DNA of 64,000 nt from Candidatus Brocadia pituitae (GTDB taxonomy: Bacteria > Planctomycetota > Brocadiia > Brocadiales > Brocadiaceae), in assembly GCA_017347445.1 (NCBI GenBank), contig AP021856.1, positions 1,806,613 to 1,870,612 on the forward strand, in the 5' to 3' direction. The notes under the pieces are model-generated. The model was given only the letters and a program-made list of their open reading frames with translations. It was not told where the DNA came from and did no database searches. Positions 23,691 to 57,115 of the stretch are shown piece by piece. Position 1 is the stretch's first letter; each line of letters begins with the position of its first letter. The translations under genes were made by a program, and so were the position numbers.

Positions 23691-25430
23691 ATGGAAATTA
23701 ACAGAAATACTATCATTAAAGACCTTATAGAGACGCATCCGGAGACTCTTGCGGTATTCAAGAAATATAATCTTGTCATTGCAGGTGGAGTTCGTGGGCC
23801 GAATGAACCCATTGCCTTTTTTGCCAAGGCTCATGAGGTTAATTATGACATCCTTGTGCAGGAGCTAAACGAGGCAATTGCAAAAGGTGGCGGGGAGCCA
23901 GTTGAAATACCGGCGCTGGAAGAAGACAAGGTCTATGAAAGATTCGTTAAAACAGCAATCATTTTAACACTCACGGTCGGGGTGACGTTTGGCGCAGCCG
24001 TACTGAGTTACGTTGCCGTTAAGCTGGATTTCAATTCCATTTATTATGCACTGATTCAGGCGCATGGTCATGCACAGCTCTTTGGTTGGGTTGGTCTTTG
24101 CATCATGGGATTCGCTTTATATATCATACCGAGAGTAAAAAATACCGAGCTCAAACACAGGAACCTGGTAAGTACCTGTTATGGTTTTATTATCGTTGGT
24201 TTAGTTCTCAGGATTATTTTACAATCAACACCTATTTCTGCCCTCAGATTTTTGTTGCTCACCTCCGCCTTTTTAGAGATGATTTCAGTTTGCCTCTTTG
24301 CATTTATCATTTTGCGGACCATATTTGCCAGCAAAGAAAAGGTGGGCATCTTTGATAAATTTTTTCAGGCTGGTATTATCTGGTTACTTATCTCCATAGG
24401 CATCAATTGTGGAATGATCATATACCTTTATAAACACGGTACCTACGAGATACCAAAGTTCGTTTTTAGTCCGTTTGTGCATCTCTATCTGTTTGGTTTT
24501 GTGTTCATGTTTATCTTTGCCATCAATGTTAGGACCGTTTTTGCCTTTCTTGATATCAAACCGGTCAGGGAAAAAGCTGTCAATATCACCTTTTGGGTAT
24601 TGAACGCATCTGTTCCGATTTATTTTGTTGCTCATCTGTTTGCACATCGTTCTACCGTAGCGCTCAGGGTTACACAAGGTATTGTATTTCTCATAGCCTT
24701 CGCTCTGATTTCATTCATATATGGATTACGTATCTTTGAAAGATCGACAAAGGAGCTTCAGGATGTCGTTATGGACCGGAGTTATGCCAAGACCATTCGT
24801 ACGGCGTATCTCTGGCTCATTGTCACCATGGTTATTTTGGTTATTATTCCGTTTCTCGGACAAGATTCTGATATACAGCGAAGATTTCACGGATCTCTCA
24901 ATCATGCCGTTACGGTTGGCTTTATTACGATGATGATTATCGGCTATGCATCGAAGATGATTCCTACCTTCAAAGGGATTGATATGTACAGCCTGAAGTT
25001 GTCAAACCTGACCTTTATCCTGCTCAATACTGGTTGTTTCCTCAGGGTATTTTCGCAGATCCTGGTGGGGATTAACGAAAAGCCTTTATTTTATGCGGTT
25101 ATGGGATCATCCGGCTGGTTTGAAGTAGCAGCGATAGGCATCTTTGGTTATAATCTGTGGAAAACCATGAACACCACGCAGGAGGTAAAATCACCGGTAG
25201 CCGGGAGACTAACTGAGGTCACAAAGGACACGAAGGTCTTTGATATCGTGGAGCAATACCCGGAAACCCTTCAAATATTTCTCGACTTTGGTTTTAGTCA
25301 GATGGCAAATCCCGTTATGCGTAAGACCATGGGTCGGGTCGCAAGTGTTGAGATGGCCACTAAGATGCATAATGTAGACATAGAAAAATTCCTTCATACC
25401 CTGAACGATAAGATTAGTTCAAAAAAATAA
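23691..25430 (+). CDS. NnrS-like polytopic haem/copper protein with DUF1858 domains at both ends
   Basis: A 579-residue membrane protein. Residues ~1-65 and ~510-575 are DUF1858-type domains (TIIKDLIETHPETLAVFKKY and TKVFDIVEQYPETLQIFLDF), a fold also seen in ScdA/hybrid-cluster-associated proteins. Between them are about twelve hydrophobic helices with His-rich segments: HGHAQLFGW, HLYLFGFVF, AHLFAHRST and the NHAVTVGFITMMIIGYASKM region. These fit the NnrS family, linked to nitric-oxide resistance, and distantly recall haem-copper oxidase subunit I. ATG 23691 is favoured over the upstream TTG. With the cytochrome c'-like gene downstream it suggests NO handling, important because NO is an anammox intermediate. 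Function is inferred from family. Confidence 0.8.
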   Translation: MEINRNTIIKDLIETHPETLAVFKKYNLVIAGGVRGPNEPIAFFAKAHEVNYDILVQELNEAIAKGGGEPVEIPALEEDKVYERFVKTAIILTLTVGVTFGAAVLSYVAVKLDFNSIYYALIQAHGHAQLFGWVGLCIMGFALYIIPRVKNTELKHRNLVSTCYGFIIVGLVLRIILQSTPISALRFLLLTSAFLEMISVCLFAFIILRTIFASKEKVGIFDKFFQAGIIWLLISIGINCGMIIYLYKHGTYEIPKFVFSPFVHLYLFGFVFMFIFAINVRTVFAFLDIKPVREKAVNITFWVLNASVPIYFVAHLFAHRSTVALRVTQGIVFLIAFALISFIYGLRIFERSTKELQDVVMDRSYAKTIRTAYLWLIVTMVILVIIPFLGQDSDIQRRFHGSLNHAVTVGFITMMIIGYASKMIPTFKGIDMYSLKLSNLTFILLNTGCFLRVFSQILVGINEKPLFYAVMGSSGWFEVAAIGIFGYNLWKTMNTTQEVKSPVAGRLTEVTKDTKVFDIVEQYPETLQIFLDFGFSQMANPVMRKTMGRVASVEMATKMHNVDIEKFLHTLNDKISSKK

Positions 25431-25514
25431 AAGCTTTCAGTTTCAAGCTGTTCTGAACTATTGCTCTGCACAAAATATGCTTCACGTAAATAGTACCCAG
25501 GGAAAGAATACATT

Positions 25515-25628
25515 TCGATAAAGGCAAACCTCGAGTAATCGTGGGACGCAAAGTAACAGGGTCTTCTGCAAAGTTGAGAGTCGAGAGTGTAGAGTTATAT
25601 TTCTGGAGACAGCCTTACTGCCGAAGAT
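25515..25628 (+). ncRNA. Probable cyclic-di-GMP-I (GEMM-I) riboswitch
   Basis: The sequence carries the two most conserved blocks of this class in order and spacing: GGCAAACC (25523-25530) and GGGACGCAAAG (25543-25553), then AGGGTCT paired with AGACAGCC about 45 nt later, and a closing TGCCGAA (25619-25625) able to pair with GGCA at the 5' side. It lies in the leader of the cytochrome c'-like gene at 25761. Its 3' strand overlaps the terminator stem, so ligand binding should block termination (an ON switch). The P2 loop is not a textbook GNRA loop, so the call rests on motif match, not computed folding. Confidence 0.8.
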
Positions 25629-25662
25629 GTTTAATAAGTGTCTTTGCAGTAAGGCTTTTTTG
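25611..25662 (+). terminator. Riboswitch-controlled terminator
   Basis: AGCCTTACTGC (25611-25621) pairs with GCAGTAAGGCT (25646-25656), followed by a T-rich run. The left arm is the same stretch that closes the c-di-GMP aptamer, so the two folds exclude each other. About 100 nt of leader remain before the start codon at 25761. Confidence 0.85.
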
Positions 25663-25760
25663 TTTTTACGATATTTGCAATAAAAGTGTTTTACGCATAA
25701 TAAGGTTTGTGTGATAGTTGTATATTTTGATTAGTGTCTCTTTTGAAAGGAGGCAGAGAA

Positions 25761-26312
25761 ATGGGAAAAACAGCTCTAAGGCGTGTTACTGCAAGTTGCT
25801 TTTTTATTGTTGCAGCAGTCGTTGTGTCTTATGTATGGACTGATAGTATAATTCCTGCGAAGGATATCGAATCCAAGCATACGGCAGAGCCAACACCTAC
25901 CAGGTCGCTGATGCGGGTTATCAGTTCTCATACGTCCAGGATCCTTGAGGCCATAATGAATGGTGATCATGAGGCTGTGATTAAGGAGTCTCGTGCAATT
26001 ACAGAAAGTAGTCAGGCTATAATGAAGAATTTCTTTCCGGAAGGCAGACAAATTGGAGAATGGTTCAAAGAGACGGGTAAGGATTCCAATAACCCAGAGG
26101 ATGTAAAGGCTGTAAAACAGGATTTTGAAAAATACTTAAAAACTGTTATTGATGCTGCAAACAATATTGCCGAAACCTCCAAAAAGCATAATATTGTCGA
26201 TACTTATAAAAGTCTCGATGCAATGTTGAAAAATGCATGTTTTACCTGCCATGAGGTTGCTCGTCCAAAATGGCCAGAATGGCCGGAGTGGATGCAAATA
26301 ACTGGGGGTTAA
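25761..26312 (+). CDS. Exported cytochrome c'-like mono-haem protein
   Basis: A 183-residue protein with an N-terminal signal or anchor helix (about 9-24). The mature part is predicted as a four-helix bundle with the haem motif CFTCHE near the C-terminus, as in the cytochrome c'/c556 class, which binds NO and often protects against it. The last residues are Trp/Pro-rich (PKWPEWPEWMQ). ATG 25761 follows GAAAGGAGG; the longer frame from 25734 would place the ribosome site inside the gene. Expression appears controlled by the c-di-GMP riboswitch and terminator upstream. It is downstream of the NnrS-like gene but separated from it by that leader. A hairpin follows. Confidence 0.85.
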   Translation: MGKTALRRVTASCFFIVAAVVVSYVWTDSIIPAKDIESKHTAEPTPTRSLMRVISSHTSRILEAIMNGDHEAVIKESRAITESSQAIMKNFFPEGRQIGEWFKETGKDSNNPEDVKAVKQDFEKYLKTVIDAANNIAETSKKHNIVDTYKSLDAMLKNACFTCHEVARPKWPEWPEWMQITGG

Positions 26313-30898: not shown

Positions 30899-32152
30899 TT
30901 TACAATTAGGTATTTTTGCTTGGTTGAATTCGATAGTTCCATTCGCCATGAAATTTATCTGGAACGAGATTAATTTTCGCCATTTCCACGTCATTAACTT
31001 TGCATCCTATTGGGTATTTCCGTCTATCAAGACGACATACCACCGCCAGCCCCTTGGCCGTTGTCGTTCCAGCAATCAGGCGGACAACCGTTTCATAATC
31101 TCGCAGCGGTTCACTCCGCCAGTTGGACGAAATGAACGAGAAGAGGCGATGCTCTACCTTGTTCCACTTGCTCGTTCCCGGGGGAAAGTGACACACGGAA
31201 ATAGGAATGTCGATCTCGTCCGCCATTTTCTGTAGTTCTCGTTTCCATAGGCGCAATCGATAACCATTACTCCCCCCACTATCGGCCGTAATCAATAGTT
31301 CGGTCACCTTGGAGTATAACGTGCGGCCCTCGTGTCGCCACCACCCCCGAAGGGACGCAACCGCAAAGACGGCTGTATCGTGATCCGTGCCTACGTTAAC
31401 AAATCCACGATTCAATCCCAGATCATAAATGCCATACGGATAGGCCCGAGGGATGGATGGTTTCGGAAAGTCATGTCCGTTGACGCGGAGAGCATTCTTC
31501 GCTTTTCTCCATTGCCTGCCCTTGTTGTCGAAGTTACCAATCAACTCCTTTTTCTTCGTATCGACCGAAACAACAGGGTTCACGCAGGCCATCGCCTTGC
31601 GTACTTTTTTGTTGATGTACCGGAACTGCTTATCACGATCAGGATGGTCACTCCCCTCCTCTGTCTTTCGGTTCCCTTGAAGGCTATAACCCGTGGAGCG
31701 AAGTAATTGCGCGACCTTCTCGTGACTAATCCGGCATCCCTGACGGGTAAGCTCTTTTGCGAGCACGCGGGTACTTTTGCAGGTCCAGCGCAATGGCGAT
31801 TCCGGATCCCCTCGGATCGATGGCTCAATCAATTCCTCCAACATGGCAGGCAAATCTGGTTTCGCAGAGACAAGACTCTGCCTTCCCGCCCCTTTGCGTC
31901 GTATCCTGATAACCGATGGCGACTCGTCCTCATTGGCTAGCTCGCGAATACCTTTGGTAATCGTCACGCGCGACAGTCCACAGGCACGACTCACCAAAGA
32001 AACCCCCCCGCGTCCAAGCTGTTTTGCTTCTGCCGCGGCAAGAACCCGGCGTGAACGCTCGTTCAAATAAGGCCATACGTACAACAATTTCTCTTTTAAA
32101 CCCGCCTCGGTTGTCATACATAATAGTATAGCTTATCCTATATATTTGTAAA
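30899..32152 (-). mobile_element. ISAzo13-like insertion sequence
   Basis: About 1254 bp containing a complete transposase gene. Both ends start with TTTACAA (30899-30905, and 32146-32152 as the complement), and about 11 of the first 16 bases match, so these are probable terminal inverted repeats. No target duplication is obvious. The element interrupts the gene that starts at 30060. Confidence 0.7.
30906..32117 (-). CDS. ISAzo13-family DDE transposase
   Basis: A 403-residue transposase. The N-terminal helix-turn-helix region (LNERSRRVLAAAEAKQLG, then SRACGLSRVTITKG) is followed by the Rhodopirellula-type DDE catalytic domain. Catalytic residues probably include the Asp of PVVSVDTKKKE, the Asp of LLITADSGGSN, and the Glu of SKWNKVEHRLFS. 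All three segments are intact and the frame is full length, so the element may still be active. The enzyme cuts and pastes the surrounding ~1.25-kb element. It lies head-on against the disrupted host gene. Family name is from pattern recognition (long ISAzo13 core with CHFPPGTSKWNK). Confidence 0.9.
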   Translation of the reverse strand: MTTEAGLKEKLLYVWPYLNERSRRVLAAAEAKQLGRGGVSLVSRACGLSRVTITKGIRELANEDESPSVIRIRRKGAGRQSLVSAKPDLPAMLEELIEPSIRGDPESPLRWTCKSTRVLAKELTRQGCRISHEKVAQLLRSTGYSLQGNRKTEEGSDHPDRDKQFRYINKKVRKAMACVNPVVSVDTKKKELIGNFDNKGRQWRKAKNALRVNGHDFPKPSIPRAYPYGIYDLGLNRGFVNVGTDHDTAVFAVASLRGWWRHEGRTLYSKVTELLITADSGGSNGYRLRLWKRELQKMADEIDIPISVCHFPPGTSKWNKVEHRLFSFISSNWRSEPLRDYETVVRLIAGTTTAKGLAVVCRLDRRKYPIGCKVNDVEMAKINLVPDKFHGEWNYRIQPSKNT

Positions 32153-56280: not shown

Positions 56281-56990
56281 GTGCCCAGCGAAGGGTAGTG
56301 TCTTCTTACGGGTGGAAGTCCCGTCATGGTAGAAGCCAGAGCCATGTAGCATGGATGGCAGGGGGCGATGGAAACGTAGCCTTCTGAAGCCCATCGACAA
56401 AGTCTGCAATAAGGCAGGCGAGCAACTATCCGGGTGGTAACGAACGTGAACGTAGAAGTAACCTTGTAAAAGTGTAATTTTACTGGCCGAGCCTCTCACA
56501 AATAGGCGAAGACAGAATTCTTTTGCCATACTGGTTAATAAGGTATAAGGACGGTGACGGGGTATCAGCGGCGACACGGATAGAAAGAGACGCAATCAAC
56601 TGGGGAAGCCCTCCTCGTCCCTGAGAGAAGTATCAGGAGCAAGGTAAGCCTTATAAGTCGAAAGACGAAGTAGGCTGACAGGCGAGAGGGTGACGGATGA
56701 GTCCGTAGTAGTGAAGATGGTAAGGACAACACAACCTGACCGGAGCGAAGGGACTCTGCTGTATCTCAAATCTTTCTTTGGAGGTGAGGTAGGGAAGAAT
56801 GATAAAAACTTTCATAAGTCTACAGGAGCTGAGGGGGAAGATATACAGCAAGGCGAAGACCGATTGACTCTTGGTCGATTGGTGGATATGCCTTGTTGAG
56901 AAGGGAGCAGGAAAGCCGTATGAGGGAAAACCTCACGTACGGTTTGATGTGGCAGGGGATGGAAAAGTACTATGGAGAGCCTAAACGGGC
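56281..56990 (+). ncRNA. Group II intron RNA lacking a reverse transcriptase
   Basis: The 5' end GTGCCCAGCGAAGGG (56281) matches the conserved GUGYC start, and domain V is clear at 56913-56946: AAGCCGTATGAGG, a GAAA-type loop, then CCTCACGTACGGTTT, with the AGC catalytic triad. Between lie about 630 bp with group-II-like GC-rich pieces (AAGTCCCGTCATGG, GGTGACGGATGAGTCCG). A typical intron carries a ~1.3-1.8-kb reverse transcriptase in domain IV; only short frames remain. The 3' end is uncertain because domain VI was not resolved. 55975-56280 shows no gene. It may splice in trans or be dead. Confidence 0.75.
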
Positions 56991-57115
56991 ACAAAGCTGG
57001 AAACGGCAGAAACAGCCAAGGAGATAAGGTGTACCCCAATGTCTAGACAATTATTTAATAAAAATAAGATAGACTTTTAATATTGTTTTTGTGACGTATC
57101 TTTTAATTATTTGAT

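Follow-up and report, generated by a model that had tools for sequence, protein, structure and literature searches.

The window, a 64,000-nucleotide stretch of the Candidatus Brocadia pituitae genome, contains an ordinary, well-supported c-di-GMP-I riboswitch in front of a target gene of interest, one encoding a cytochrome c'-like protein. We put at about 0.82 the probability that this element is a transcriptional ON-type c-di-GMP-I riboswitch and one of about 48 copies of a module that stands before many, mainly surface, genes. Coordinates are positions in the window unless genome coordinates are indicated.

A c-di-GMP-I aptamer upstream of a cytochrome c'-like gene

The aptamer lies at 25514..25626 on the + strand, where two Rfam covariance models score above their cut-offs: RF03167 (c-di-GMP-I-GGC) with 59.9 bits (E 1.3e-11 in the 64-kb window; cut-off 59) and RF01051 (c-di-GMP-I) with 57.3 bits (cut-off 35). 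The match of the riboswitch models to the window is far beyond chance, and neither model gave a match in any of 14 control genomes. A c-di-GMP-I riboswitch had been proposed in an earlier sequence-only reading of this DNA, which named the RF01051 search beforehand as a check; the score, 22 bits above the cut-off, bears the proposal out. The extent given in that reading, 25515-25662, ends with the terminator described below; the aptamer itself spans 25514-25626.

The sequence blocks that had been singled out are all present: GGCAAACC at 25523-25530, GGGACGCAAAG at 25543-25553, GGGTCT at 25559-25564 paired with GAC at 25608-25610, and the closing TGCCGAA at 25619-25625. They form an architecture of P1, a P2 stem closed by a GUAA tetraloop of the GNRA type (25535-25538), and a P3 stem with a 43-nt loop insert (25565..25607, + strand), the sequence of which varies among orthologues and paralogues. 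The base pairs of P1 and P3 form, and P2 has five of its six pairs, with one U-U mismatch. The element resembles the c-di-GMP-I riboswitches Vc2 and Cd1 (RF01051, GEMM-I) in the P1-P3 three-way junction, the GNRA tetraloop and the bases G20, A47 and C92. It differs from them in the 43-nt insert in the P3 loop, in a 3' strand that doubles as a terminator arm, and in being present as about 48 copies in a single genome. MicroRNA matches at the terminator in a permissive Rfam run were rejected as chance matches to the hairpin, far below their own cut-offs.

The pocket bases and the ligand

Positions 20, 47 and 92 of the window aptamer follow Vc2 numbering, by alignment of the conserved blocks. G20 (25523), the base that selects between c-di-GMP and cGAMP, was placed by model alignment and extraction; A47 is at 25550, and the pocket base C92 is at 25621. 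Read from these three bases, the predicted pocket is of the canonical c-di-GMP type. Among the elements extracted from the genome, A47 is found in 47/47, G20 in 44/47 and A20 in 3/47, and position 92 is C in each of the 38 elements whose 3' strand could be parsed. In the nearly complete Brocadia genome G019, G20 is present in 51/55 copies, A20 in 0/55 and A47 in 53/55.

RF03167 is the top Rfam family for the element (59.9 versus 57.3 bits), its cut-off is passed by 17 copies in the genome, and the window copy shares with it an A at position 19. The element might on these grounds be a c-di-GMP-I-GGC variant, with another signalling molecule perhaps being what the switch reports. The window copy, however, is only 0.9 bits above the RF03167 cut-off, and reads CGCAAAG where the RF03167 consensus reads CGCGAAG. 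Since c-di-GMP-I also reads CGCAAAG here, the mark of RF03167 is G47, which we infer to be the base that gives the GGC family its name. In the column of this strongly conserved G, the window copy and 46 other extracted copies have A, and G occurs in none of the 55 copies of G019. The A at 25550 is the reason for rejecting the GGC variant as the ligand class, and we consider this alternative improbable.

The same aptamer class, ON-type terminator design and cytochrome target are found together in the Geobacter GEMM-Ib riboswitches, which sense cyclic AMP-GMP and precede cytochrome, pilus and polysaccharide genes (PMC6456294). The Geobacter pilM and pgcA riboswitches in particular are ON-type, with a mutually exclusive terminator, and are likewise positioned before cytochrome or pilus genes. 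These carry A20, whereas the Brocadia copy has G at this position (25523), and an A20G exchange makes a Geobacter cGAMP riboswitch selective for c-di-GMP (PMC6456294). Hypr cGAMP synthases have Ser in place of Asp at the selectivity position of the GGDEF domain (PMC6456294), a position that by our own reading falls within the GHxxGD segment. The Asp of this segment is kept in all 16 GGDEF domains encoded in the Brocadia genome, and none of the 16 is of the Hypr type, with Ser or Thr for the selectivity Asp. G20 together with this GGDEF inventory led us to reject cGAMP as the ligand class, and a cGAMP-sensing element in the window is very improbable indeed. PilZ proteins are also encoded in the genome. 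Because of the G20/A47/C92 pocket, the 16 Asp-containing GGDEF domains and the PilZ proteins, c-di-GMP is the best-supported predicted ligand.

The cGAMP-type base A20 occurs in three copies, L035 (2823847), L043 (128045) and L047 (3564239; all genome coordinates). L035 is otherwise intact, with a terminator, and is upstream of a sigma54 activator gene; a Hypr cyclase was not found in the genome.

The aptamer shares a strand with an intrinsic terminator

An intrinsic terminator is located at 25611..25661 (+). Its arms, AGCCTTACTGC (25611-25621) and GCAGTAAGGCT (25646-25656), complement each other exactly, a T-run comes next, and the hairpin folds at -22.2 kcal/mol. The left arm consists of the 3' strand of P3 plus C92, as the sequence-only reading had recognized in assigning the aptamer's 3' strand to the terminator, and therefore the aptamer and the terminator are mutually exclusive. 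A generic terminator scan listed nothing at 25611-25661, its simple stem-loop rule excluding long, bulged hairpins. In the Geobacter pilM riboswitch, aptamer and terminator are likewise mutually exclusive and the output is ON (PMC9262584).

Since the 3' strand of the aptamer is the left arm of the terminator, ligand binding should permit read-through, and the overlap supports the ON-type design that had been proposed. The full leader folds at -42.4 kcal/mol with the terminator and at -25.4 kcal/mol with the aptamer enforced, energies that exclude the ligand and tertiary contributions. As the ligand-free terminator fold is better than the aptamer fold by about 17 kcal/mol, switching would have to be kinetic. 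In the mechanism that we propose, the aptamer would fold while the leader is being synthesized. With c-di-GMP bound, P1 and P3 would hold the strand AGCCUUACUGC (25611-25621), which would block the terminator and allow RNA polymerase to continue into the cytochrome c' gene. In the ligand-free leader, AGCCUUACUGC would instead pair with GCAGUAAGGCU (25646-25656), and transcription would end at the U-run. It is most likely that high c-di-GMP would turn the gene on; the direction of switching, and its effect on the cytochrome c' gene, are thus predictions.

The target gene and its neighbor

The gene downstream of the riboswitch (25761..26312, +) encodes a protein of 183 aa with one C-terminal CxxCH motif (CFTCH). 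The cytochrome c' family PF01322 matches it with 28.1 bits against a cut-off of 26.5. The predicted fold (mean pLDDT 72) has well-predicted helices and poorly predicted ends, with four helices at residues 46-66, 70-91, 112-141 and 145-170. Cytochromes c' were the best Foldseek matches in the PDB (probability 1.0, with a weak E-value of 0.046), and the Kuenenia Kusta0087/0088 complex (PDB 6R6M) was also among the matches, with a weak E-value of 0.17. The PF01322 score above the cut-off and the agreeing predicted fold support the first reading of the target at 25761 as cytochrome c'-like. The four-helix fold and the C-terminal CxxCH are shared with cytochromes c' and with the Kusta0087/0088 complex; sequence similarity to these structures is not, as a PDB sequence search with the protein gave no match at E up to 1. 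NaxLS (Kusta0087/0088) was rejected as a sequence homologue for this reason.

Upstream of the riboswitch, at 23691..25430 (+), is a gene for an NnrS/COX1-like membrane protein with DUF1858 domains (PF08984, PF00115 and PF05940, all above cut-off), and read-through from this gene would also cross the riboswitch. From the gene families and the NnrS/COX1-like neighbor, a function of the cytochrome c' in NO handling would be plausible, though speculative. Elsewhere in the window there are pieces of a group II intron at 56306-57040 (+; D1D4-4, 104.5 bits, and Intron_gpII, 45.3 bits), and a gene for a 403-aa transposase-like protein at 30906-32117 (-), a near-identical copy of which is found downstream of the L038 riboswitch.

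Conservation of the riboswitch-cytochrome link and possible independent promoters

A search of 32 related genomes found clear orthologues of the cytochrome (at least 49% identity) in 22. The riboswitch and terminator are in the same place in four other Brocadia genomes, G051, G008, G022 and G019 (protein identity 97-79%), and the riboswitch before the cytochrome c' gene is thus kept in five Brocadia genomes, including that of the window. The core of these orthologous copies is nearly invariant and the P3 loop is wholly changed. The gene is present without the riboswitch in Brocadia genome G058 (72% identity), in Jettenia, in Kuenenia and in other genera; genus g3 has the two genes, NnrS-like and cytochrome, side by side without an intervening riboswitch. 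The sequence-only reading had correctly taken the genome to be of an anammox type, and had suggested a search of other anammox genomes for the same leader; the leader is found in the four further Brocadia genomes but is absent from the other genera that have the gene. Because other genomes have the gene without the riboswitch, the riboswitch would have been gained within Brocadia, or lost elsewhere.

The promoter scan listed none before the window aptamer, and we could read there only a weak sigma70-like candidate, TTCACG-17-AAGAAT (8/12), at 25481..25509 (+). The leader between terminator and gene (25697..25760, +) contains a ribosome site and, from the alignment, a possible second promoter. 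Within it, GTATATT...GAAAGGAGGCAG is kept even in G058, the Brocadia genome without the riboswitch, and this conserved stretch could be a second, riboswitch-independent promoter. A different reading of the locus is that the structure is real but mainly ends or gates transcripts of the NnrS-like gene, with the cytochrome c' gene having its own promoter after 25661. The weak promoter before the aptamer, the leader conserved in G058 and the identical gene order in genus g3, where the riboswitch is absent (L082, L083), are consistent with such an arrangement. However, the G019 and G022 orthologues have a near-consensus sigma70 promoter, TTGACG-17/18-TATAAG, directly before the aptamer, and stopping transcription needs no aptamer, yet the aptamer is conserved. 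We regard this reading as unlikely, though not far-fetched, and favor riboswitch control of the cytochrome c' gene. Given the weak promoter and the leader conserved in G058, the gene may have a second promoter or be reached by transcripts that start at the NnrS-like gene, and the cytochrome c' may also be made independently of the riboswitch.

A genome-wide set of riboswitches

The window element belongs to an unusually large, fast-changing regulon. RF03167 matches the genome at 47 places. RF01051 does so at 45, one of which is not among the 47, and at least 48 elements are therefore present. Standard pairs occupy 95.6% of P1-P3 cells, whereas the highest value over 200 shuffles was 92.3%, and two-sided changes are seen in P2 and P3 across the extracted copies. 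A shared-strand terminator, pairing with the aptamer 3' strand at -16 kcal/mol or better, is present in 35/47 copies, a count that leaves out two weaker positives (L010 and L046), and is missing in about a quarter of copies. In G019, it is present in 49/55 copies.

The genes downstream are mostly for surface functions: prepilins and pilins, the exosortase EpsH, adhesins and an autotransporter. Other targets encode proteins with PKD, cadherin or Ig-like domains, glycosyltransferases, polysaccharide synthesis proteins, the T6SS protein TssK, a caspase/PEGA protein followed by a CsgG-like one, and two sigma54 activators. GGDEF genes are downstream of two copies (L025 and L042).

Between 19 and 56 copies are present in each of ten further Brocadia genomes, and complete or nearly complete genomes of the genus have 45-56; G. 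sulfurreducens, by comparison, has 17 GEMM-I copies (PMC8835794, PMC6456294). Genomes from the remaining genera of the family have 1-28 copies, the rest of the order 0-11, and sampled Planctomycetota outside the order 0-3, where at most 14 candidates were scored per genome and counts above 14 were undetectable. A homologue of the target is found behind a G019 element for only 14/47 elements, the cytochrome included.

Several copies have unusual forms. A tandem pair of short-P3 aptamers (L009, 2195099-2195292 in the genome), without the usual terminator, precedes a gene for a large Sortilin/BNR-type surface protein, and a 95% near copy with one aptamer is at 2295158 (L012). In L021, L026, L027, L034, L041 and others, P3 is extended to variable lengths by arrays of GTTTAAAC-like palindromic units. 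The units (39 matches, versus 0 in a reversed control) also occur outside riboswitches, at 448051, 452951, 1123478, 1133478 and 3873020 of the window genome (G000). A dispersed ACCGCAAAGACGCTAAGG repeat, apparently inserted, lies inside or just after P3 (L016, 838372-838591, and 836105; L047 and L048). Four elements are crowded into about 3 kb, at 835-838 kb (genome coordinates).

A possible portable cassette under dual control

In nine copies, a common block with three tandem inverted repeats (consensus GTGTGNCATGNCACAC) lies about 200 bp upstream of the riboswitch. With up to 2 mismatches, this operator occurs 38 times in the genome and 5 times in the control. A sigma54-like -24/-12 box is found between the repeats and the riboswitch in most of the nine; with up to 3 mismatches the box is present in 11 copies, against 3 expected from shuffles, and with up to 2 mismatches in four, against 0.2 expected. 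The pairwise similarity of several operator-bearing copies reaches the terminator and stops there. G019 has this pairing of operator and riboswitch at about seven loci.

These features could indicate that, in Brocadia, promoter, riboswitch and terminator make up a portable cassette that has been copied before dozens of surface and respiratory genes with fast turnover. We hold this tentatively, at a little under even odds, because the copies of a single cassette do not count as independent evidence. The fast turnover rests on only 14/47 target links being common to two Brocadia species. As the upstream operators and the sigma54-like box precede the riboswitch, expression from such a cassette would need both an enhancer protein and c-di-GMP.

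The GTGTGNCATGNCACAC repeat loci on contig G000:C1 of the window genome include 797013, 1030455, 1389789, 1393766, 1926580, 2440688, 2824131, 2834754 and 3508061. About five further repeat loci lack a riboswitch, and in Jettenia (L078-L080) the operator is before the cytochrome c' gene itself, the riboswitch being absent. The operator was rejected for the window copy, none being found within the window even at 3 mismatches, and a sigma54-type promoter for this copy gave one match with 3 mismatches, which was not convincing.

Significance

Among the results of a search of mainly open-access papers, we recognized no work on riboswitches in anammox bacteria. These bacteria grow as biofilms and granules and have no routine genetics. 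Reading a c-di-GMP regulon straight off its riboswitches yields a list, open to testing, of genes for surface, secretion and respiratory functions that are linked to the biofilm or granule state, and the cytochrome c' within it would connect biofilm signalling with the handling of NO or electrons. With its many copies, Brocadia is a natural experiment in the growth of an RNA regulon, and, if the cassette proves true, it would have the largest regulon of c-di-GMP riboswitches of all genomes checked.
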